Source: a virus
Direction: 5' to 3' (one strand)
DNA: 27,284 nucleotides
Virus record (IMG/VR): IMGVR_UViG_3300031625_000021
Coordinates: 1-27,284 of that record
Below are positions 7,104 through 20,417 of this stretch, one piece after another (the stretch's first letter is position 1; every line of letters starts with the position of its first letter). The notes below the pieces were generated by a model. The model did not search any database, was not told where the DNA came from, and worked only from the letters and a program-made list of their open reading frames with translations. The position numbers and the translations under genes were made by a program.

Positions 7104-7418
7104 TTACTCCTCTTTTTTCTCACTAACACAATTAAGATAAAGGCTATCGTCTTCAGCCTTAATAGCTACAGAACAACCTTCAAAACCTTTTTCCGTCGCA
7201 ACGCCTACAATAACTGCGTTGACGGCACCCTGCATCTCTTGGAACTGCTTCTGCTTCTCATCTATTTGCGCGACCAATTCCCGTAGCGCCGCCTCCATAG
7301 TTTTGAGCTTGGTCAATTGCCGGGAGACGATAAGTTCCTCTGCAGGTTCTAAGGTAACTTCCACTTGTCCAAAAGCCATTGACGAGAACATAATCGCAAC
7401 AATATATAACTTTTTCAT
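7104..7418 (-). CDS. small exported coiled-coil protein with signal peptide (104 aa)
   Basis: MKKLYIVAIMFSSMAFG is a classic Sec signal peptide: two Lys, a hydrophobic core, and AFG before a predicted cleavage at G17/Q18. The mature part begins QVEVTLEPAEE, continues as a heptad-like helix (residues ~33-66) and ends in a small domain with two cysteines (C82, C97) that could form a disulfide if exported. No family recognised. A purine-rich AAAGAAG site precedes ATG at 7418. It is flanked by a fibre-like protein and an internal virion-like protein, so either it is a virion component or an envelope protein made late; its export is the strongest inference. Confidence 0.65.
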   Translation of the reverse strand: MKKLYIVAIMFSSMAFGQVEVTLEPAEELIVSRQLTKLKTMEAALRELVAQIDEKQKQFQEMQGAVNAVIVGVATEKGFEGCSVAIKAEDDSLYLNCVSEKKEE

Positions 7419-7431
7419 TTGAATCTTCTTT

Positions 7432-8595
7432 CTAAGGATCGGTATCTGTTAACAGGACACTAAATGCACGTCCAGTTTGTGCGCACACTAAAAGATAAGG
7501 TGGGTCATCGCTAGATAACGCCGACCAACCATTTGTAACCCCGGCGCAGGAAGTATCAACAAAAGATGCCTCTGCCCCTGCAACTCTGTTATAAAAATTT
7601 CCTGCCCCTACATATAACGTAGAATTTGAAGCAGCTCCAGTTGCAATTCCCCCTGTGGCTGTAGTGACCCCAGAAATAGTTATACTATTTCCGTCTATGA
7701 CACCAAAGAAAGCAGCGCCTCTAAAAGCGGGAGAGGCTCTACCTATCGTAGCAATATATGCCTCGGTCCAATAAAGTCCTGAAGATCCTAAATCTCTAGC
7801 GCCACCAGGTAAAAAATCATAATAAGAAGTAGTACTAGAAGTAGCAGAATTCCAGTGCATCATCCTGTTAACGCCGGCAGTATCTACTAAATCTAGCTGT
7901 TGATTTACAGCATTGTACTGGAAAGTAAAGCTTGAAGTTTTATCTGCCTTCGTTATTTCAATCTCATGGGCATTCCAGACATCTGCGAAACCCCACCTAA
8001 TTCTAGTGGTGTTAGTCGCCAGATCGTACAGAGAATCCGTAGCCCATTCTTGTGTGATCCCCCAATCGTTTACGATATTAGTGCCTGCTAAAATATAATC
8101 ATTATCTTGAGGAGTAAGAACTCTGATTGTTGCCGTAGTCAAACCATCTACTTCAAATCTAATTTCTTTTGTGGGGTCTACACTTCCTTCAACAATAGAG
8201 GTAGTATCTACTTCCGGAAGTCTCGCGCAACCAGTGCAAGTGCCCGAGATGTCTAGATCAACTAGCCAAGCCTTTTTCCATCTATAAGCATCAAAGCCTA
8301 AATCATATGTGTTATTTATTCCAGGAAAAAGTATTGCCTCAAATAGCACTTCTGCGGGCGACACAAAAGAACGAAATGACACCACTATATTAGCCCCGCT
8401 ATCTACCAATTTTGTGGCATTTGCGGCCTGGTATAAGAAAGTGTGACTAGTGAAAGTCTCTAGGTTATCCTGGAATGCTAAGCCCGCGGGGGAAACAATC
8501 TTAGCGTTTGTACGAACAATGATCTCGCCCACCTCAGTATCCTGAGCAACGCTTACCGCCAAAGAAAGAAGGAATAAAGCAATTAGTTTTTTCAT
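7432..8595 (-). CDS. fibre-like protein with signal peptide (387 aa)
   Basis: MKKLIALFLLSLAVSVA is a Sec signal peptide with a likely cut after A17 giving Gln at +1. The mature chain is beta-rich, Thr/Asn/Gly-rich and resembles phage fibre shafts: LGFDAYRWKKAWLVDLDISG, then FLPGGARDLGSSGLYWTEAYI, two related steps that recur in receptor-binding/fibre-type proteins. Four cysteines occur in the mature part (GTCTGC, TSC, LVC), an even number compatible with disulfides. A C-terminal domain (WSALSSDDPPYLLVC) may be the tip. Coupled to the gene before it by TAATG. Receptor binding is inferred. The signal peptide on a presumed virion fibre is the oddity. Confidence 0.65.
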   Translation of the reverse strand: MKKLIALFLLSLAVSVAQDTEVGEIIVRTNAKIVSPAGLAFQDNLETFTSHTFLYQAANATKLVDSGANIVVSFRSFVSPAEVLFEAILFPGINNTYDLGFDAYRWKKAWLVDLDISGTCTGCARLPEVDTTSIVEGSVDPTKEIRFEVDGLTTATIRVLTPQDNDYILAGTNIVNDWGITQEWATDSLYDLATNTTRIRWGFADVWNAHEIEITKADKTSSFTFQYNAVNQQLDLVDTAGVNRMMHWNSATSSTTSYYDFLPGGARDLGSSGLYWTEAYIATIGRASPAFRGAAFFGVIDGNSITISGVTTATGGIATGAASNSTLYVGAGNFYNRVAGAEASFVDTSCAGVTNGWSALSSDDPPYLLVCAQTGRAFSVLLTDTDP

Positions 8596-9101
8596 TATGT
8601 GTCCAACTTTATTGGGGGTGCCACCATGTACGCTACCGTCACACTTTCAGCAGACATCAGATACGTGGTAGTATCATTTATTCCAGTCCTTACAGTCATA
8701 TTTGTAAAACCCTTCCAGTCCGACGGCCAGCTAGTGACGTCCCAGCCTCCTGTAGCATCCTGTTTTATCTCCACCAGGTATAAGGAATCGGGAACTAAAA
8801 CGTAAGCACCATTTGCAATCGCTATGTCCGCGGTTAAAGTAATGCGAATAAACTTAACTTGTCCCGCAGCTGCTACAGAAACCGCATTAGTAATAGTATT
8901 AACTACTCTCGTAACCGTTAAATCTTCAGTTGCGGCAACTAATTCGTCCTGGGTAACATAGTCTGCGCCGGCCACCGATCTACCATTATTGATACTCCGC
9001 ATCCCATGACGATCAATATTGTTGGTATTCTGGAACGAAAGTAATTGCTCTATCCGTCGGATAGCCGCCTCGCAATCTGCAATTGTTGTAATTTTAGGCA
9101 T
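8595..9101 (-). CDS. tail-associated hypothetical protein (168 aa)
   Basis: Short soluble protein, no signal peptide. An N-terminal helix (DCEAAIRRIEQLLSFQ) could be a trimerising or docking coil; the rest is beta-rich (ITLTADIAIANGAYVLVPD, then TVRTGINDTTTYLMSAESVTVAYM), like a small fibre tip or baseplate-type domain. It is joined by TAATG to the nozzle-like gene before it and the fibre-like gene after it, so a part in the tail tip is likely. No family is recognised with confidence. Confidence 0.6.
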   Translation of the reverse strand: MPKITTIADCEAAIRRIEQLLSFQNTNNIDRHGMRSINNGRSVAGADYVTQDELVAATEDLTVTRVVNTITNAVSVAAAGQVKFIRITLTADIAIANGAYVLVPDSLYLVEIKQDATGGWDVTSWPSDWKGFTNMTVRTGINDTTTYLMSAESVTVAYMVAPPIKLDT

Positions 9102-12100
9102 TACTTGTCAAACTTAATCTTTTTCAAGCTAGTTGGCATTCCACTTGTTCCCACCCTAAACTCCCCGCCGGACCTATAGAAGATCGCCGCCGACGCAAAT
9201 TCGATGCGCGCCGTTCTACCTTTGCGAGCTTTAATAAAGTTGAACTCGTAGGTACTAAGCACATTGGCAAGAACCGTTAGAGTCCCGCTGTCTGCGGAGA
9301 CATCATCAATAAACAATTCCCAGGTTATAGAAGTATTGGTGGGATAAACAGTGATCGCGCCCTGCTTGAACCAAACAACCTTGTCAGCAATGATTGGGCC
9401 AACCTGGTCAATGCGTTTGCCTGGGGGGAATATCTCTACAATTGTTGGCGCATGCAACTTATAAAATTCAAATGGGTTTCCATTCCCATTTAACGTTATC
9501 TCAAAGTCCACGCCCATTAAATCTGTAGTAATGTAATAAAAAGCGGTGGCCTTCGCTGGAGTATTGATTGAAACCGTAGGAGCCGCGACATTATCTATTA
9601 GTAGCTCGACATCAACTGCTAGCCCGCGGGTATCAATAACTAGGGGAATTCGCCTAATCCGCTTAATTTCCGGGCTGCCGAAGTTAGTAATTGGCAACAC
9701 CGCATACTTCGTGGGCGCCGGGAGAATCTCAAATACCGTTTCCTCTAGATCAATTGTGTAGTATTCAAAGGCGGTTGCCCCCGACAGCTTAATTTGTAAA
9801 TCGGTCCCACGGACATCCGTCGTGAAATAATGAATATGCGTTCGCGCATTAGGAGTATTCGCATTAGAAGTAGCCACCGCAACACTATCAATAATGGGCG
9901 TGACCGTAACATTGGCCCCAAAAGTATTGATAACGATTGCAAGCCTAACGAACTTTTTAAGACCTGATTTCCCTAGATTTGTTTCGGGGGTAAGGTAGAA
10001 TTTAACAAGATCAGGTAGAACCTGAATCTTTTCAGGCTTCAGCATCTCATAGAATTCAAACTGATCGGTGAGTAGAGTCCCCTCAATGACTAGGCCAACT
10101 TCGTGCCCATTTTGCTCAGAGGTAAAGAATATGCGCTCTACCGTTTTTCCAGCCACACCGCCGGAAAATGTCGTGGCCGCCGCGCCAACTTCCACTTCGT
10201 CTACTGTTGGGGTTACGACGACAGAGTTAGCCAAACGGTCCAGAACAAATGGGACTTCGTAGAAACGTTTCCGCCCCGCACTTCCGTAGTTTGAGCCTAG
10301 AACTCTTAGGTGATTATTGGGTATCGGGCGCGCGTTGTAAGTTACCGCCCAGTAGTACAACTCAAAGGCTGCAACTCCAGCGCCGCCAACATCTTCTATC
10401 TCTAGTTGATAAGAATGCTTGAGGTGGATCGCATCTGCATCAGATATCTTTAGGTTAAGGACAGCAGTGGGCGAAAGAACAAAATTACCGTAATCTTTAG
10501 TTGCAGCAGCGTTATCGGCGCGCACCACTATATGAACATTCGAGCCTCCACTATTTCCCCAAATAGTTATTTGCCCAAGGTCTTTTCTCTGGAGCGGCGC
10601 GCCCCCGTCAAGATAGCCAGACATTATGTTAAATTGCTGATGAGTGCTTCCGTCTAACTTCGTCCCAGTATCAAGGATACGCATCTTCCTATCTGCAACA
10701 TTTGTAAATATGGCCAGCAAAGTCCCATCTTCCTCCACAAACAACTTGGTGGGGTTCACAAAATAAGGCCGCCAATATTGTCTAATCAGGTCAAAAACAA
10801 AAACCCGCCGCGTCCCGTCAGAAAGGGTCACCGAACACCAGAGCTGATTTTTTGTGGTTACACAAGAAGAATTGACAGTATTCCCACTACGCATGTCAAC
10901 ATATGGATTGCCGTACCTAGCCTCATTCCGATAAAGTAAAGAAGTAGCCCCAACAATAGATTTGCTGCTAACCCCTGAAAGGACGCGCCACCCATCACTA
11001 GCAAAATAAATTGCAGTATCATCATAAACCGTAACTGCATCAGAAATAGGGGGGTGCCCAAGACCCAAAGGCCGTAAATTAAAATCAACCGTAAAATCAG
11101 CTAAAACGGTACCGGTTCCCGAAAGCTCATAAATATCGTTTGTAGTGCCAATTAAAAGAGAGGACTCCCCCACTTTCCGCACCCATAAATTCAATTCATT
11201 AGAAGCGCCAGAAACATCTAAGATATTCCGCGAGTCAACTGCATCTGGGTTATCTGCTTGCGAGGGGTAAATTTTATCGTCCGTCGTATAAATCATTCTC
11301 CCAAAATACGGCCCCGCAATCGCTTGCATGTCTGTAGGAGGGTGAATTAAGAATAAGTTAGCGATAGGACCTAAAGCGGCATCGACCTCGGAAAGAGAAT
11401 CTTCAAATAAAACGGTGTTAATTCTAGTTGCAACGCGATGGTACGTGTCCCCTAAAATATCTCTAGGGTTAGTGAAATCATTGTTAAGTTTCTTCCTGTA
11501 GATCCATATTTCATTTACAGAAGTTCCCCAACCAGTAGGAACGTCTGGAGCAACGTTTATCTTATCCCTGTCCGAAATAAGTTGTACGGACACCCCTGCC
11601 GGGCTTACCGCAGTATATTTCCCATTATCATAGACATTAACTTGAAGATATTCGTATACCCCATTAAAAGTGCCTAACCCACCAGTAAAGGACATCTCTG
11701 GGCCAAGAGTTAGAACATTAGGCCCAGAGTACTCCGCGGTTATCCAAACTTCTTTGATGTCTGACCAATCTAACGTGGTGTCAGTACCAACTCTGGTAAA
11801 GTCACTGCGATTTAACTGTACTTTCGCCCAGCTATTAGTCTGGAGATCGAACTGATCACTTTCTAATTTGAGATCAACCCGATAGGATTGAAGAAAAGTG
11901 TAGGGAACCGATAAACTGGTTAATGAAAATTCAATACGTAAATTAACTAACCCTGGGGGTTCCTGCGATTTAATATCTAATGCAAAAGTATCTTCCGGTG
12001 CGGCATTACCCGTTCCCCCCAGATCACTGCCATCTATTGCTTGAATTAGCCGCATTGAAGCAATATTAGTTCCAACTTCGGTGACAACTTCTACGTTACC

Positions 12101-12610
12101 TGAGGGATAAGTTACAGAAGCTCCTATAATTTTGGCGTAATTAAGACGAGTTCCGCCTACTTCTTTAATTAATTTAGACTGCAGGGTAACTGTAGGAGCC
12201 GCCGGCGTTTCTACCCCTAGCGTGCGTAAAGTTGTGCCGTCCCATTTATCGCTGCTCGCCCCATTATTCATTATCACTTGATTCGTATAAGAACCAAATG
12301 CAGGAGTTTGACCGGAGCTTCCCCCGGTGATTAGGTTTGCCCCTCCCACAGGTTTTATAGTTCCGTCAGTAAAACCCGCGAGGCGGTGAACCGTAGCCCC
12401 AATCCTTTTAGAAAATAAGCTAGTGGGAACTTTCGAGCTAGCAGTAAGATCAAAGTCTTCCACCACAGAAGTTCCGCGCGTTAGGCGAACTTGCCCCTGC
12501 TCCGACAACTCCAGGTTATCGAATTTAAGATTTCCGGCTGGGGGGGAATTTACGTCAGACGCATCGGGAGTCCAACCTAAACTGAAATCTCTTTGTCCTA
12601 ATTCAGCCAT
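9101..12610 (-). CDS. giant tail nozzle-like protein with repeated C-terminal modules (1169 aa)
   Basis: The N-terminal ~770 residues are beta-rich with features of podoviral tail nozzle / stabilisation proteins (T7 gp12 or P22 gp10 type): opening AELGQRDFSLGWTP, and a propeller-like core with FGRMIYTTDDKIYPSQ, WVRKVGESSLLIGTTNDIY and AIYFASDGWRVLSG. From about residue 765 four related modules of roughly 95-110 residues follow, each starting near an NFG/NYG-(x)-KR motif and ending in FEFY-type strands (FEFYEMLKP, FEYYTIDLE, FEFYKLHAP, then a divergent last copy). This is far longer than T7 gp12 (about 800 residues). Its ATG overlaps the upstream gene's TGA by 8 nt. Assignment is from layout and fold style, not from a search. 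Confidence 0.6.
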   Translation of the reverse strand: MAELGQRDFSLGWTPDASDVNSPPAGNLKFDNLELSEQGQVRLTRGTSVVEDFDLTASSKVPTSLFSKRIGATVHRLAGFTDGTIKPVGGANLITGGSSGQTPAFGSYTNQVIMNNGASSDKWDGTTLRTLGVETPAAPTVTLQSKLIKEVGGTRLNYAKIIGASVTYPSGNVEVVTEVGTNIASMRLIQAIDGSDLGGTGNAAPEDTFALDIKSQEPPGLVNLRIEFSLTSLSVPYTFLQSYRVDLKLESDQFDLQTNSWAKVQLNRSDFTRVGTDTTLDWSDIKEVWITAEYSGPNVLTLGPEMSFTGGLGTFNGVYEYLQVNVYDNGKYTAVSPAGVSVQLISDRDKINVAPDVPTGWGTSVNEIWIYRKKLNNDFTNPRDILGDTYHRVATRINTVLFEDSLSEVDAALGPIANLFLIHPPTDMQAIAGPYFGRMIYTTDDKIYPSQADNPDAVDSRNILDVSGASNELNLWVRKVGESSLLIGTTNDIYELSGTGTVLADFTVDFNLRPLGLGHPPISDAVTVYDDTAIYFASDGWRVLSGVSSKSIVGATSLLYRNEARYGNPYVDMRSGNTVNSSCVTTKNQLWCSVTLSDGTRRVFVFDLIRQYWRPYFVNPTKLFVEEDGTLLAIFTNVADRKMRILDTGTKLDGSTHQQFNIMSGYLDGGAPLQRKDLGQITIWGNSGGSNVHIVVRADNAAATKDYGNFVLSPTAVLNLKISDADAIHLKHSYQLEIEDVGGAGVAAFELYYWAVTYNARPIPNNHLRVLGSNYGSAGRKRFYEVPFVLDRLANSVVVTPTVDEVEVGAAATTFSGGVAGKTVERIFFTSEQNGHEVGLVIEGTLLTDQFEFYEMLKPEKIQVLPDLVKFYLTPETNLGKSGLKKFVRLAIVINTFGANVTVTPIIDSVAVATSNANTPNARTHIHYFTTDVRGTDLQIKLSGATAFEYYTIDLEETVFEILPAPTKYAVLPITNFGSPEIKRIRRIPLVIDTRGLAVDVELLIDNVAAPTVSINTPAKATAFYYITTDLMGVDFEITLNGNGNPFEFYKLHAPTIVEIFPPGKRIDQVGPIIADKVVWFKQGAITVYPTNTSITWELFIDDVSADSGTLTVLANVLSTYEFNFIKARKGRTARIEFASAAIFYRSGGEFRVGTSGMPTSLKKIKFDK

Positions 12611-12932
12611 TTTTTATCCTACTGACTACTCGAAAATGCCCAACCAGTCCTGCAAAAATTGCGGCTAACATGGCTAAAAAGACCGCCCACTGCCTATCGT
12701 CCCGCGCAGAAATTGCATCTTTAATCTCCACAGCTAACCCGGTTATAGCAGCACCATTCCTGATTATAGCTTCGCGGTCATTAGCCGACGCACTAATTTG
12801 TTGTATGGTTAATTGCTCTAATTTCCGCAATCTCTTTTCATGATCGGCGGATGTCTCTGCCCAAGGCGTCGCCGCAGTTAAACTAAGGCACATAAAAATT
12901 ACTGCGCTAGTACCTAAAAACCTGTGTAGCAT
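12603..12932 (-). CDS. coiled-coil protein with N-terminal signal and C-terminal membrane helix (109 aa)
   Basis: The first ~25 residues (LGTSAVIFMCLSLTAATPWA) form a signal peptide or membrane anchor. Residues ~28-60 (HEKRLRKLEQLTIQQISA) are a coiled coil, and ~83-101 (AVFLAMLAAIFAGLVGHF) a transmembrane helix with a basic tail. A coiled coil followed by a C-terminal membrane helix recalls XhlA-type holin-associated proteins, but the N-terminal signal is extra and the placement among tail genes is unusual. It may also be a spanin-like or virion-membrane protein. The stop overlaps the nozzle gene start by 8 nt. An AGGTTAAGAG site is weak but plausible. Confidence 0.55.
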   Translation of the reverse strand: MLHRFLGTSAVIFMCLSLTAATPWAETSADHEKRLRKLEQLTIQQISASANDREAIIRNGAAITGLAVEIKDAISARDDRQWAVFLAMLAAIFAGLVGHFRVVSRIKNG

Positions 12933-12947
12933 AAGTACTCTTAACCT

Positions 12948-13001
12948 CTAATTAAGAAGTAGAAAAAGGGCTACTACCGATACTACCAGATTAAAAAACA
13001 T
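12948..13001 (-). CDS. 17-residue hydrophobic peptide
   Basis: In the 81-nt gap between two exported-protein genes lies ATG at 13001 preceded by a clear AGAGGAT ribosome binding site, reading MFFNLVVSVVALFLLLN and TAG. It is almost entirely hydrophobic, enough for one short membrane helix. It could be a functional membrane micro-protein or merely a leader peptide. Supported by the ribosome binding site and the hydrophobic content only. Confidence 0.4.
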   Translation of the reverse strand: MFFNLVVSVVALFLLLN

Positions 13002-13013
13002 TTAATCCTCTAT

Positions 13014-13367
13014 CTACTGCAATGCTTCTTCTTCAGCTTTAAGAGAGGCGTCAGCAGCTTCCTTGGCAATCAAGGCGTCCCGATATGCTTGGGGGAGCAA
13101 AGTAGCATCAACAAGGGCCGCTTCCTGGATTGCCCGACCCTTGAACACCTCAACAACCTCTTGTGCCTTCATCTCAAACCAAGTTAAAGCTTCTGAATTG
13201 CTAACCACCCCATCTTTGTCTGTGTCTGTTTCTTCCATAAATTTAGCAGCCAAAAATGCCTTAATGGGAGCAATTGACGATGTTTGAAACGTCAACGTGA
13301 TTTGTCTGCTAACAGTCTGTGCAAAGACTGGGCTAACAAATAAAAACAAAACAATAAAATACCTCAT
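13014..13367 (-). CDS. exported EF-hand-containing protein (117 aa)
   Basis: MRYFIVLFLFVSPVFA is a signal peptide with a likely cut after A16 leaving Gln at +1. Residues 48-59 (DTDKDGVVSNSE) match a canonical 12-residue EF-hand calcium loop: Asp at 1, 3 and 5, Gly at 6, Val at 8, Ser at 9, Glu at 12. The flanking sequence (KAFLAAKFMEET before, ALTWFEMKAQEVVEVF after) supplies the two helices. A C-terminal Ala/Lys/Glu helix follows. The strong AAAAGGAG ribosome binding site is 4 nt before ATG. It lies directly after a signal-peptide fibre gene. Calcium binding is inferred from the motif; the partner and role are unknown. Confidence 0.65.
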   Translation of the reverse strand: MRYFIVLFLFVSPVFAQTVSRQITLTFQTSSIAPIKAFLAAKFMEETDTDKDGVVSNSEALTWFEMKAQEVVEVFKGRAIQEAALVDATLLPQAYRDALIAKEAADASLKAEEEALQ

Positions 13368-13378
13368 AAGAACTCCTT

Positions 13379-15457
13379 TTAGTTCACACTTCGTGCGCCG
13401 GATTCGTACCAGTTGGTTCCGTCACACCAAAGATTGATTGTGTCATCAGCAGTGGTGACGAAATTTCCAGCTATCTTCAAATTTCCGCCGTCAGTAAGAG
13501 TTAAAATCCCATCAAAGATCAAGACAACCTCTCGCCCGTTGTTTGCTGCATCGCAGGTATTTAGCGTGGTGATTGTCGTAGTTCCGGTAATGTGAAACAA
13601 ATTCCCCGCCGTTAAAGCTGTTGTTGTGGCACTCGCCACATTTGCAGAATCGGCGTAGGTAATAGTTCCCGTGGTCGTGTCAATGCCACCCCCAGCAGGG
13701 AAAGCCATATAAGAAATTCCAGAGTTACTCTGAACATTTAATATATCTCCCGATTGCCCTGGACCTTCCTTGAATATAACCTTCGTGTCTCCAGTAGTCG
13801 CAGTCCAATCCCAGACACGGAACGTGGGAGCAATAAAATGCCAGGCCCCAGCATTGTCTACGTTTGCTCTACTGGTGGCGCTAGTAACAATATGTAAAGA
13901 ATGCGCGCTATTGTTTCCTATCACCCCAAGTGTGTCCTGCGCTTGTATTATCACAGTAACATTATTAGTGGTATCCTTAGCAGTAATAGTGGGGGTAGAT
14001 GCATGGCTGAAACTGTGGTTCGCACCTGTGAAAGTGTTCGACCCGGACAAAAGAGCAACATCCGCAGTATTAGAAAGATCGGTCGATGCCGCTTGAGCAA
14101 ATGCTGTACCGTTGAATAGTAGAGACTGGTTAACGGGCAGGGGGATGAAAGTGCCTGTACCGGCTCCCGTGCCTATAAATGCCTCGTTGTCCAGAATACT
14201 TGCCGGGGGAGTGGTTTCTAAATCATTAGTTTCTGCGACATCAGAATCTGCTTCGCAACTAAAGGTATTTGTAGCTGCCGTATAACTTAAACTAAACTCA
14301 GTATTACAGTTAGGTATTGTTGCGTATGCGGCAGTATTAACCCCCGAACCAAGAAGTACTTGGTCATCCGCAGAGTTTCCTGTAACTACCGTAGCATTTA
14401 TCTGCCCCTCTTCTTCCAGATCCGCTGTGGGGTCCGTGCCCGCATGTTCTTCACTTTCTAAGCGGAAATCTATTGCAGCCTGCCCGGTCCCTAAAGTACC
14501 CCCAATTGCAGAGAGATCAAAATTAGCTTCTATTGCGTCAATAACAATAGTTCCGATACCAAAAGTTACTGATAGCTCATTCCCAGCTTCAGCAGATAAA
14601 GTAAGATGTTCCTGCGCGGTTGCTCCCGCATTTGTTTTAATTAACTGGTTTGCAGTCCCGTTAGGAAGTCGGGCTAAAACAAACTGCCCCGCAGTGGTTG
14701 CAGAGGTATTTAAGCCATCTACGGTAGTATCGTTATGAGTATGAGAATCATTAGCAACTACAGTTGCACCCGGGAGTCCAGAAACATCCCCAACTAATGC
14801 AGTATGCGTAAAAGCAATAGTATCGGTAGCCGCAGTTCCAGTTAAAGTAAAAGCCGAATCGACCGTAATTATTAGAGTATCGGAAGCACTAGCAAGGGGA
14901 TCGGTTCCTGATGGCACGTCTACAGTAGTAAAAGAGGTTACCGTGCTCCCGGGACAAGTAATGTACTCAACATTAAGGCCGCCAGTCGCCACTACTACAC
15001 ATTCCCCAGCAACAGGAGAATCGGCTACATCAGATAACTTTGCAGTCGTAATAGTGTCGTCAGCAACTACATGGCTCAGATCTGAAATATCTGCCTCTAC
15101 AACCGTGATAGTGTTACTGGCAGTGTTAATAACCTTGCTGGTAAGAGTACTAATCGACGAAATAGTGTGGTCCGCCGCCACCGTGTGGGACAGATCCGAG
15201 ATATCCGCTTCCACTACAGTAATAGTATTTGAAGCAGTATTAAGTACTTTGTTAGTTAAGGTACTAACTGACGATATTGTGTGATCTACCCCAAAAGATT
15301 TAATGTTAGCCCAAGTGATATGCTTAGTCTGCGTAAGACTAGTATCAACGATAACTAAAATGTCATCGTCAGCAGGGGTAGCGACGAGCGCCGGCAAGTC
15401 ACTAATCTTTTGCCCGTAAAGGCTAACGCACAAAAAGAGTAGAAGTAGTTTTTTCAT
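13379..15457 (-). CDS. tail fibre-like protein with signal peptide (692 aa)
   Basis: MKKLLLLFLCVSLYG reads as a Sec signal peptide with a cut after G15 and Gln at +1. Mature residues 58-133 consist of two 38-residue repeats (33 of 38 identical). The rest is Thr/Ala/Gly/Asp-rich beta structure of the kind seen in phage fibres and ends with the fibre-tip-like segments LTDGGNLKIAGNF and NLWCDGTNWYE. Six cysteines are in the mature part. The ATG overlaps the adaptor gene's TAA and has a GGAGAT site. It follows the adaptor and precedes the nozzle gene, as expected for a fibre or spike. Receptor binding is inferred; the signal peptide is atypical for a fibre assembled in the cytoplasm. Confidence 0.7.
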   Translation of the reverse strand: MKKLLLLFLCVSLYGQKISDLPALVATPADDDILVIVDTSLTQTKHITWANIKSFGVDHTISSVSTLTNKVLNTASNTITVVEADISDLSHTVAADHTISSISTLTSKVINTASNTITVVEADISDLSHVVADDTITTAKLSDVADSPVAGECVVVATGGLNVEYITCPGSTVTSFTTVDVPSGTDPLASASDTLIITVDSAFTLTGTAATDTIAFTHTALVGDVSGLPGATVVANDSHTHNDTTVDGLNTSATTAGQFVLARLPNGTANQLIKTNAGATAQEHLTLSAEAGNELSVTFGIGTIVIDAIEANFDLSAIGGTLGTGQAAIDFRLESEEHAGTDPTADLEEEGQINATVVTGNSADDQVLLGSGVNTAAYATIPNCNTEFSLSYTAATNTFSCEADSDVAETNDLETTPPASILDNEAFIGTGAGTGTFIPLPVNQSLLFNGTAFAQAASTDLSNTADVALLSGSNTFTGANHSFSHASTPTITAKDTTNNVTVIIQAQDTLGVIGNNSAHSLHIVTSATSRANVDNAGAWHFIAPTFRVWDWTATTGDTKVIFKEGPGQSGDILNVQSNSGISYMAFPAGGGIDTTTGTITYADSANVASATTTALTAGNLFHITGTTTITTLNTCDAANNGREVVLIFDGILTLTDGGNLKIAGNFVTTADDTINLWCDGTNWYESGARSVN
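15059..15286 (-). repeat. two 38-codon direct repeats, protein-conserved but DNA-diverged
   Basis: Copy 1 is 15173-15286 and copy 2 is 15059-15172. The encoded units both begin DHTISS and contain NTASNTITVVEADISDLSH; five residues differ, while most codons differ synonymously. The duplication is therefore old and held by selection on protein, not a recent DNA copy. Confidence 0.85.
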
Positions 15458-16203
15458 TAGATCTCCAGCAAAATCTCAACGCCATCTTCTCCGGTAAGCG
15501 GCGTCCCGCTTTCAGCCAACAACGGAATAGTTCTAGCACCCAACGGAACAATTAACTCAGGTAGGCGGTCGATGTAGGACTTTTTTTTTCTTTGGTGCCC
15601 GCCCAGCAGGTACATTGCGCCGGCATGGTTAACTTCCGAGTCGCGGTACATCTCCAGCATTTGATTATATCTGGATTCGTGATATCTAGAAGCATCAATA
15701 TTCTGCCCCAAGCCCTCACGTAAAAAAGCGTGCCATAAAACATAGTGTTTCACAGTACGCCGGGCGAGGTAATCTGGGAGCACAAAATCAGTCGCGCTAA
15801 TGGTAGGGTCCATTTTCGCAGTGACAACTAAAAGCGTAGTGATATCATCCTGGTAGATCGAAGTATCGTCAGCCGTGAGAACTTCCTGGGGCGCGGGCAA
15901 CAATCTTATGGACGCAAGGTTATCGAACCCGCGCATATAATAGATCGGCGGCGACCCTTCTTTCTCTAGGAGCTGGTCTGCCCCCTGGACAATCTCATCT
16001 ATGGTTATAGGGCAAAGGGCGTCCCCTTTCCAAGTAACCCTGATAATGTCCTTAACACCTGCGGGAAGGGTGTAGATCGCCTGATCAACTACAGTAGTAA
16101 TTGAAAACCGCTCAAAAAAGGGTAAAAGACGCCGAGAGATGTCCAGCTCCGCATCTTCCGCAAGCTGAGTTAAATAAGCGTCAGTAAAAATTTCTAAAGG
16201 CAT
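15457..16203 (-). CDS. head-tail adaptor-like protein (248 aa)
   Basis: The N-terminal half (LAEDAELDISRRLLPFFERFSI, then DQAIYTLPAGVKDIIRVTWKG) has the helical-bundle plus beta arrangement of phage adaptor proteins that attach to the portal, and PPIYYMRGFDNLASIRLLPAP is typical of such proteins. The later helices (ARRTVKHYVLWHAFLREGL, ASRYHESRYNQMLEMYRD) resemble the helical part of the adaptor. A run of nine A on the coding strand (near 15583-15591) encodes part of QRKKKS and could allow slippage. ATG overlaps the stop of the 30-codon gene (TAATG) and the TAA overlaps the fibre ATG. Family assignment by pattern. Confidence 0.7.
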   Translation of the reverse strand: MPLEIFTDAYLTQLAEDAELDISRRLLPFFERFSITTVVDQAIYTLPAGVKDIIRVTWKGDALCPITIDEIVQGADQLLEKEGSPPIYYMRGFDNLASIRLLPAPQEVLTADDTSIYQDDITTLLVVTAKMDPTISATDFVLPDYLARRTVKHYVLWHAFLREGLGQNIDASRYHESRYNQMLEMYRDSEVNHAGAMYLLGGHQRKKKSYIDRLPELIVPLGARTIPLLAESGTPLTGEDGVEILLEI

Positions 16204-17416: not shown

Positions 17417-17977
17417 CTAATCTCCTTCACTCTTAAAGGGGTAATCCGCAGAAGCATACACTTCGTCGTAAAACAACTTCTCCCGCGACATTACTTTTTC
17501 CGAGGCGGTACACCTCAAAACTTGATAGTGCGGGCCGTCGTCTTCCTCTGCGACCGCAAATTCAGCAAACCCCAAAGGCGCAAGAATACCTAGAAGATAC
17601 GCCGAAGAAATTACACAAACATGATAATCTGACGGAACTAGTTGCCGCCCATAAATTGTTGCTTCCCAAAATTGCCGGTCGTCGTCCGTGGCCGTCTTTA
17701 GCCGCTCCACACAATTAAAGAAATCAGGATAAGATAAGAAAAGCTCGCCACCAATACCCAGAACACGCCTAATTTCACTAAAGATCGCATAGTGGTGCTT
17801 CTTTTCGACATGCTCAATCGTGTGGTACATAACCACTTCAGAAACTTCCCCGTCTTCAAAGGGCAGTTTATTCTTGATAAAGTCTAGCGATAGATCAACA
17901 CCTGGAAGTTCTTGGACATCAATGTTCACGTAACCGTCAATTACGTTATGCCCGCAGCCTAAGTTTAATTTCTTCAT
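17417..17977 (-). CDS. SAM-dependent class I methyltransferase (186 aa)
   Basis: The N-terminus KKLNLGCGHNVIDGYVNID is the SAM-binding motif I (LNLGCG, residues 4-9) with the acidic ribose-binding residue D20. MYHTIEHV (about residues 50-57) and EIRRVLGIGGELFLSYPD complete a Rossmann methyltransferase of the compact type often found in sugar and surface-polysaccharide gene sets (COG4627-like). It overlaps the glycosyltransferase stop by ATGA, so the two are translated together. A substrate is not visible; a sugar or glycosylated virion protein is a sensible guess from the neighbour. Smaller than DNA methyltransferases and lacking their (D/N)PPY motif, so DNA modification is unlikely. Confidence 0.8.
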   Translation of the reverse strand: MKKLNLGCGHNVIDGYVNIDVQELPGVDLSLDFIKNKLPFEDGEVSEVVMYHTIEHVEKKHHYAIFSEIRRVLGIGGELFLSYPDFFNCVERLKTATDDDRQFWEATIYGRQLVPSDYHVCVISSAYLLGILAPLGFAEFAVAEEDDGPHYQVLRCTASEKVMSREKLFYDEVYASADYPFKSEGD

Positions 17978-18747
17978 GCGGATACTTTCTTGAATTCCAG
18001 TTTAAGCACGGCGTCATGGTATTCCTCGCCCCGATCGCCCCGGTCTTTTTCCGGCACGCAGCCAAGGAAAATCTCATCGAACGCGCGCATCATATTTACA
18101 TTCTGCGAATTAACTTCTACGATCTGGCTTACTAGGTGGCTCGTAATAACCCCATAGTGCCCTAGCAATTTCGTGCCCGGCGACTCATTGTGAATCTTGA
18201 CACAAAAATAGACGTCCTCAGTATTCTGCGTCCCTGTTAAGAAATAGGGCGCTTTCATTTCTCGGAGAAGATCACCTCTAATCAGCGCGCAGGAAAAGCC
18301 TACCGCGTCTACTTCCGTTATTGGTTGGTCTTTATCGACCCTATTAGATATCTTTGCATAGTCGTAGTAATGTTCTAGGTGCGCCTCCTTTTCAGTCTTT
18401 GAGGTGTACTTAAAATACATGGGCGGATAAGGGTAGGTGCGAACCAAAGTATTTCCTGCAACTACTCCAGTGCTACCCGAACCTATTGCCTCGTAAAGCA
18501 TCTTAAAACAATGCTGGGGGACTAAAACGTCATCGTCTAGGAACATCAAGTAGTCCCAATCGTTCACTAAAAGAATTCTCGCGGACTCGTTACGCATACG
18601 GTCGATAGACATTCGCCCCGGCGCAAATAGGTGGAACTTAAAATCTGGAAAATCGCTCGCACAATCATGCCAAAAACTACAATGGCTAGAGTACGCTAGG
18701 GCATTAACCGAAGTTAAACAATTTACAGCTATTAAAATATGTTTCAT
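17974..18747 (-). CDS. GT-A type glycosyltransferase (257 aa)
   Basis: GT2-like fold: N-terminal beta strand MKHILIAVNCL, the nucleotide-sugar/metal-binding run FLDDDV (Asp 71-73), a donor-loop region, VDAVGFSCALIRGDLL as acceptor strand, and the NTEDVYFCVKI motif (Glu177/Asp178) that resembles the catalytic ED of GT-A enzymes. The protein transfers a sugar from a nucleotide donor; donor and acceptor are unknown. It follows the decoration-like protein after a 77-nt gap and overlaps the methyltransferase by ATGA. Likely acceptors are virion proteins or a host surface glycan. There is no membrane segment, so it is probably cytoplasmic. Confidence 0.8.
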   Translation of the reverse strand: MKHILIAVNCLTSVNALAYSSHCSFWHDCASDFPDFKFHLFAPGRMSIDRMRNESARILLVNDWDYLMFLDDDVLVPQHCFKMLYEAIGSGSTGVVAGNTLVRTYPYPPMYFKYTSKTEKEAHLEHYYDYAKISNRVDKDQPITEVDAVGFSCALIRGDLLREMKAPYFLTGTQNTEDVYFCVKIHNESPGTKLLGHYGVITSHLVSQIVEVNSQNVNMMRAFDEIFLGCVPEKDRGDRGEEYHDAVLKLEFKKVSA

Positions 18748-19346: not shown

Positions 19347-20417
19347 TTACGCCACGATGCCGCGTGAAATATTAGTCAGAACGCCGTGTTTACGACGATT
19401 CGTCATGACAGTGTTGCCGCGCCAGAAAATATGCGCTGCTTTTGCGTTCTGCAGAGGCATTTCCATAAAGGGCCGCATCTTAAAGTTTGTTTCCGAGTCA
19501 TAAATGACCTTGAAGTACTTTGAATTGAGCGCCCACATTGTTCCGAGCGCGCCCGAAGCAGTTGCATCAAGTCCGCCACCAGAAAGATCAGGAACCTTCT
19601 CGTCCCAAGTGATCGCAGTGCCGTTATGAGAAACTGACTCAAACGGGAAGTTAGCAACAGGCTGGGGATCACTACGATTACGCTGATAAATTGCAAACTT
19701 CAACGTAATAAAAGTGGTCAAATCAGTGATTAGCAAGTCAGGCTTTCCGCCCGTACCTTTTCCGGCATTTGCGATAAGCAAATCAACTTCCCGAAGCAAC
19801 GCATCATAAGTAGTCGCCGTTGAAGCAGTTTGCTGACTCTGCCACCAAGTTTCCGTGGCCGGATCAATGTTTCCAATTACCCCAGTTGTAGGATCAAGGG
19901 GAACTAATTGCCCAAGGGGCGTAATTCCCAAAGAACCATTCCTGGCAGAAACACGCGGAGTGTTCAAAGCGCCCGCACCATTCCCCTGGAAAAGCATCTC
20001 AGGAATAAATTCCTGCATACCATCACTGGCCTGCTGAAGTTTCGTCTCCACCAAGTTAATGATTCGCTGGGCGTTTTCGCGCCGCTCTTTGTGCGAAACG
20101 ATAATCGAAGTAGAAACGTCTCGCCAATCAAACAATGCCTTAGTGACACCATCAATCGGGGTAACGTCTAAAGTATCGTACCCAGAATAAGTGTCCGGCG
20201 CATTATTTGCATAACGCAGCGGCGCTTCGATATTCGTCCCGCCATCCTGGGACTCGTAAGTCCCGTTCTTTTTAATCAAGTGCCAAAGAGCGTTGTTAGA
20301 CGTGATATTGTCTTCCATCGTCTTTCGACTAGCGGCCAGCGACTGAGCAAAAACATAATCGAGATTTAATGTTTTTGTTGAAGGTACGCCGGCTCGCCCA
20401 TAAGTAGCTGTAGCCAT
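19347..20417 (-). CDS. major capsid protein, HK97-fold (356 aa)
   Basis: Located after scaffold and before decoration, with the layout of HK97-fold coats: N-arm (ATATYGRAGVPSTKTLNLD), E-loop area (NGTYESQDGGTNIEAPLRYA), spine-helix-like ENAQRIINLVETKLQQASD, P-domain and A-domain strands, and the ending ALNSKYFKVIYDSETNFKM, AKAAHIFWRGNTVMTNRR that is typical of capsid C-termini. It is the highest-expressed structural protein by inference. No protease gene is present, so head maturation probably occurs without proteolysis. Three bases separate it from the scaffold stop. Confidence 0.8.
   Translation of the reverse strand: MATATYGRAGVPSTKTLNLDYVFAQSLAASRKTMEDNITSNNALWHLIKKNGTYESQDGGTNIEAPLRYANNAPDTYSGYDTLDVTPIDGVTKALFDWRDVSTSIIVSHKERRENAQRIINLVETKLQQASDGMQEFIPEMLFQGNGAGALNTPRVSARNGSLGITPLGQLVPLDPTTGVIGNIDPATETWWQSQQTASTATTYDALLREVDLLIANAGKGTGGKPDLLITDLTTFITLKFAIYQRNRSDPQPVANFPFESVSHNGTAITWDEKVPDLSGGGLDATASGALGTMWALNSKYFKVIYDSETNFKMRPFMEMPLQNAKAAHIFWRGNTVMTNRRKHGVLTNISRGIVA

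Follow-up and report, generated by a model that had tools for sequence, protein, structure and literature searches.

It is generally assumed that the fibres of tailed phages are folded and assembled inside the cytoplasm, and this locus raises the question of why several proteins encoded in the tail region of an uncultured short-tailed phage begin with what look like export signals. The phage is represented by the IMG/VR virus record IMGVR_UViG_3300031625_000021, a stretch of 27,284 bases that was analysed over its whole length and is referred to here as the window. Its structural cassette lies on the minus strand, and four late genes of this cassette encode proteins of 692, 387, 117 and 104 amino acids (aa) with N-termini resembling signal peptides that end directly before glutamine. 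We consider it probable (roughly 80%) that these are genuine Sec/signal peptidase I (SPase I) leaders following the Q-rule (Gln at position +1), which were added in this lineage to late tail-cassette proteins including at least one canonical tail fibre, and that the precursors are exported by the host, cut before Gln and probably cyclised.

The four open reading frames (ORFs) were found on the minus strand where the initial annotation had placed them: the 692-aa fibre-like precursor (13379..15457; leader codons 15413..15457), in which the signal peptide is followed by a canonical KIS[ED]L fibre N-terminal domain, the 387-aa fibre-like precursor (7432..8595; leader codons 8545..8595), the 117-aa protein (13014..13367) and the 104-aa precursor (7104..7418). 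Their leaders are MKKLLLLFLCVSLYG/QKIS (cut before Gln16), MKKLIALFLLSLAVSVA/QDTE (SVA/Q), MRYFIVLFLFVSPVFA/QTVS (VFA/Q) and MKKLYIVAIMFSSMAFG/QVEV (AFG/Q), respectively; all are short, of the Sec/SPase I type, and have Ala or Gly as the last residue. They were evaluated using a home-made leader score based on the charge of the n-region, the hydrophobic core and the residues at -3 and -1, in which the +1 residue is not rewarded. A positive n-region, a hydrophobic core and small residues at -3 and -1 were present in all four, with scores of 7.9 (692 aa), 9.9 (387 aa), 9.5 (117 aa) and 8.2 (104 aa), and the Q-rule residue Gln was found at +1 in 4/4 leaders. An identity as phage lipoproteins of the superinfection exclusion type was rejected, as the +1 residue in all four is Gln and not the lipobox Cys. 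Since the home-made score yields false positives, independent evidence was sought.

The N-terminal domain of the 692-aa protein (residues 16-54; 15296..15412, minus strand) was found by a domain scan to be encoded in 72 viral contigs. In 70 of these the protein starts with M/L-A-D-[QK]-KIS[ED]L...VD and has no leader, mostly behind a Shine-Dalgarno sequence (the start in L140 was read separately), and the identity of these homologues to residues 16-54 is ~45-65%. The leader occurs only in the window lineage (2/72 contigs), where MKKLLLLFLCVSLYG/QKISDL places it exactly at the position of MAD with Gln at +1 as in MAD-QKISEL. With MAD replaced exactly by the leader, cleavage would give back the N-terminus usual for such fibres, and the cleaved fibre would have the same N-terminal domain as cytoplasmic fibres. 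The full-length signal-less homologues match tail-fibre and virion structural families of PHROG (phrog_8745, 24456, 892, 18345 and 19195) with E-values down to 5e-43. Given these matches and the lack of a leader in 70/72 contigs, the leader is best interpreted as a derived feature added onto a canonical fibre, and the 692-aa protein as a derived variant and atypical member of the MAD[QK]KISEL fibres, which has their homologous N-terminal domain and not their leaderless cytoplasmic start. The initial annotation had proposed that fibre-like proteins of the tail cassette carry export signals, so that either assembly would have to follow an unusual route or the proteins would act at the host envelope, and this part of its interpretation is supported.

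Comparison with related phages, by which the leaders were to be judged, upheld them: the relative L008, which is ~90% identical, retains all four despite core changes in the 692- and 387-aa leaders. For the 387-aa protein the nonsynonymous divergence (dN) between the window and L008 was 0.28 in the leader and 0.045 in the mature part, and the 692-aa leader differs by an indel, with hydrophobicity and the A/G-Q end kept in both; the substitution counts behind such leader comparisons are small (15-17 codons). Core divergence with kept hydrophobicity and a kept A/G-Q end is, as read here, how signal peptides evolve. The 692-aa protein is wholly identical in contig L007, and homologues of the 387-aa protein were not found besides that of L008. 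The sole start of the 692-aa gene with a Shine-Dalgarno sequence is the leader ATG, which overlaps the stop of the adaptor gene; the ATG of the 387-aa gene and the stop of the structural gene before it, encoding 168 aa, likewise overlap (TAATG in both cases). Internal GTG/TTG codons with Shine-Dalgarno-like matches are contained in the 117- and 387-aa genes. The mature parts have 6 (692 aa), 4 (387 aa), 2 (104 aa; Cys82 and Cys97) and 0 (117 aa) cysteines, and all 12 are conserved in L008, in pairs 3-43 residues apart. The even counts of 6, 4 and 2 that had been taken to indicate disulfides hold; the argument built on them is weak, because Cys678 (LWCDGTNWY) of the 692-aa protein is present in signal-less homologues too, and 8 Cys are conserved in the terminase as well. 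The paired conserved cysteines fit oxidation outside the cytoplasm without proving it and are regarded as weak evidence. A single EF-hand-like loop, DTDKDGVVSNSE, is located at 13191-13226 in the 117-aa protein and suggests calcium binding outside the cytoplasm.

Searches using the major capsid protein (19347..20417, minus strand; phrog_9953, 1e-36) as query gave some 30 related contigs, many of which were read in pieces. About half of them encode signal-peptide proteins with +1 Gln in the late region, three of which are spike-like, and these proteins were always on the structural strand (G001, G005, G006, G008, G013, G014, G017, G018 and L026). Among them are proteins of 120 aa directly behind the tail protein (G001), 161, 749 and ~972 aa (G005), 362+ aa (L026) and 562 aa (G017), and two proteins in G013; in G010 the leader has Ala at +1. 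The script gave low scores or set the cut elsewhere in G005, L026 and the 246-aa G014 protein, for which +1 Gln was read by eye. Other relatives (e.g. G007, G011 and G015) showed no leader-bearing proteins. The G017 protein matches tail spikes (4e-10) and, just below the cut-off, a pectate-lyase-like Pfam domain, a search for its homologues returning the G017 spike alone, and weaker matches to tail spike or tail protein PHROGs were obtained for L026 and L025/G005. Across the window and its capsid relatives +1 Gln was present in 13/35 high-scoring leaders of non-overlapping genes vs 1/37 of overlapping off-frame ORFs (p = 2e-4, Fisher test, with a Gln background of 4%). A leader-bearing 362-aa protein (L011:11477-12565; NAFA/QAPV) was also observed in the structural region of a 52-kb phage unmatched by the window tail protein, so the trait may extend beyond the window clade.

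In Bacteroidetes most SPase I substrates expose a Gln that is cyclised to pyroglutamate, by which the protein is stabilised (PMC5837995, PMC10653852), and the +1 Gln of the four leaders matches the signature of such Q-rule substrates. In two plasmid stretches of Granulicella tundricola (Acidobacteriota; L105 and L106) the script found +1 Gln in 9/17 high-scoring leaders, and several of the remaining leaders have A-Q a few residues further on, as judged by eye; an Acidisarcina plasmid was left out on account of too few leaders. The Q-rule seems to reach beyond Bacteroidota, into Acidobacteriota. Because the Granulicella plasmids show +1 Gln too, the phage host is probably a Q-rule diderm for which Bacteroidota is not the sole option, and Shine-Dalgarno use, clear in several relatives from the corresponding statistics, argues weakly against a typical Bacteroidota host. 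When genomes were scanned twice for a host, using capsid and terminase profiles, only one distant terminase turned up, in a metagenome-assembled genome of Anaerolineae. As controls, the structural cassettes of five capsid-level relatives (three with known hosts) were free of leaders, and in five phages infecting Bacteroidota, in which the Q-rule holds (two records partly read), leaders were absent from the long tail proteins checked and present only on other, mostly small proteins. As these control phages are without tail leaders, belonging to the capsid lineage or infecting a Q-rule host is not enough by itself to give the trait. A Q-rule leader, VASA/QEST, is present on a 97-aa protein of Cellulophaga phage phi38:1 (L184:31090-31383), encoded away from the tail genes.

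The explanation given at the outset builds on the leader features, their conservation, the exact replacement of MAD, the position in the late cassette and the recurrence in relatives, all of which are seen in the sequences themselves. Several points weigh against it. The leaders were called by the home-made score and sequence comparison, and this score has false positives: the glycosyltransferase-like protein at 17974 reaches 7.97 and a few off-frame ORFs 7-8. Two leaders are not faster-evolving: in the 104-aa protein the mature part changes at least as fast as the leader, and the leader of the 117-aa protein is identical in L008. The patterns of the domain scan were those of the window lineage and two MAD forms, so that 70:2 is no frequency estimate, and leader-bearing versions with other letters before KIS could escape it. 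Cultured phages of Q-rule hosts are without tail-protein leaders, and a Q-rule host alone does not explain the trait. The use of the Q-rule by the host is furthermore presumed.

Under the favoured explanation the host Sec system would export the precursors, SPase I would cut them before Gln, and the mature N-terminal Gln would probably be cyclised to pyroglutamate. We infer actual export, cleavage and pyroglutamate formation from sequence, and consider it most likely that the late fibre and spike proteins are exported and cleaved. After export the fibres could reach the tails once lysis breaks open the envelope, or free or surface-bound proteins could act on the host envelope.

The first of these fates, to which we give a little less than an even chance, involves periplasmic folding and attachment to tails at or after lysis, resulting in virions with extracytoplasmic receptor-binding proteins. 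The cleaved 692-aa precursor keeps the canonical fibre N-terminus, the stretch most conserved with signal-less fibres, which would suit it to this fate, although the binding of the virion by this domain is presumed. The genes with leaders are interspersed with the tail genes and coupled to these in translation, and both long fibre-like proteins of the window (692 and 387 aa) have leaders; against this, the literature searched gives no precedent in tailed phages, and in the leader-bearing spikes of the relatives the pectate-lyase-like part follows after no more than a short stretch. For the 692-aa protein a return to the virion at lysis is slightly favoured because its N-terminal fibre domain is intact. 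The full scenario of receptor-binding fibres that are secreted by Sec, pyroglutamylated, perhaps disulphide-bonded in the periplasm and fitted to tails only at lysis appears rather unlikely.

Exported proteins may also, at odds somewhat below even, function independently of the virion as late envelope tools (free depolymerases, adhesins or receptor blockers) that aid release or exclude other phages. Such a role would accommodate the small leader-bearing proteins (104 and 117 aa) alongside the fibres, the pectate-lyase-like domain of the G017 spike and the spike-like matches in L026 and L025/G005, and Bdellovibrio has tail-fibre-like MAT adhesins that carry signal peptides and are exported (PMC10769870). 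Free action is favoured by the leader-bearing spikes, because these have only the short stretch before the enzyme-like part, whereas the 692-aa protein keeps a fibre N-terminal domain for which a free enzyme or decoy would have no obvious need, and exclusion fits the late operon position poorly.

That uncleaved N-terminal hydrophobic segments anchor the proteins in the membrane or virion is improbable. The hydrophobic N-terminal helix would permit this, and the protein at 12603 has a C-terminal helix as well, but the leaders are short and end in A/G-Q, Gln is in excess at +1, the start of the canonical domain coincides exactly with the predicted cut site, and no second strongly hydrophobic helix is seen in the mature forms of the four proteins (19-residue maxima 1.1-1.4). 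The virion membrane anchors suggested in the initial annotation were rejected on these grounds. Mis-called starts or chance hydrophobic N-termini, which the false positives of the simple score might suggest, were rejected as very improbable given that the 692-aa gene has no downstream start backed by a Shine-Dalgarno sequence, that the leaders are present in the independent contigs L007 and L008, and that +1 Gln is in excess.

A fifth protein of 109 aa (12603..12932, minus strand) is a weaker case. The signal-like N-terminus and C-terminal hydrophobic helix described for it are present, with a coiled-coil-like middle; the predicted +1 residue is Thr and the signal call is less certain. Its topology is u-spanin-like, and it departs from a u-spanin in that no lipobox was read in the sequence. 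In the structural cassette the terminase, portal and major capsid protein were matched by PHROG; the rest comprises a scaffold-like protein, an SU10-type adaptor (15457..16203, minus strand; Pfam PF24175, 4.3e-13) directly upstream of the 692-aa gene, the five studied proteins, a 1169-aa tail protein (9101..12610, minus strand) and three further late proteins. The tail protein has no signal peptide and is nozzle-like as judged from its position; its C-terminal third seems to contain approximately three tandem beta-rich repeats, and the G001 version is longer (1382 aa). Glycosyltransferase-like and methyltransferase-like genes (17417-18747, assigned by sequence reading) are located between the capsid and neck genes, and the same pair was observed at this site in L006, L022, L024, L025, L026 and L008. 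None of the five studied proteins could be assigned to a family with confidence by PHROG and Pfam scans, which gave only sub-cutoff Pfam matches for the 692-aa protein; neither this protein nor the 387-aa one matched a PDB sequence at E 0.1, and none of the cultured phages matched the portal or the 692-aa protein. An AlphaFold model of the 387-aa protein, made from a two-sequence alignment, had a predicted local distance difference test score (pLDDT) of 27.5.

The exchange of MAD for a leader and the recurrent spike leaders of the relatives suggest that some phages may send fibres or spikes out of the cytoplasm. If exported fibres rejoin the virion this would be a new assembly route, and if they do not, phages would be using fibres as envelope tools that are secreted. 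From sequence alone, the +1 Gln signature gives a hint at which hosts uncultured phages have, and it points to the Q-rule in Acidobacteriota.

Compared with known systems, Bradyrhizobium phage ppBjS10J-1, Myxococcus phage Mx8 and Stenotrophomonas phage BUCT555 have a related major capsid protein (~24-30% identity to a clade capsid) and differ in that no signal peptides were found in their structural cassettes. The MAT fibres of Bdellovibrio, in which fibre folds stand behind signal peptides and outside the cell (PMC10769870), are likewise tail-fibre-like proteins exported behind a signal peptide; they are products of bacterial predation genes with a conserved domain of ~130 aa behind the signal peptide, and the likeness, drawn by description, is a functional analogy only. 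The MAD[QK]KIS[ED]L tail fibres share the homologous N-terminal domain and a fibre-like sequence with the 692-aa protein, whereas they lack the signal peptide that replaces MAD in the window. With the Q-rule SPase I substrates of Bacteroidetes the window leaders (4/4) and most late leaders of the relatives share +1 Gln, whereas the window leaders are phage-encoded and stand on fibre and spike proteins. In phages of Porphyromonas gingivalis, five genes whose function is unknown likewise encode Q-rule signal peptides (PMC10367356), whereas in the window clade tail fibres and spikes are included.

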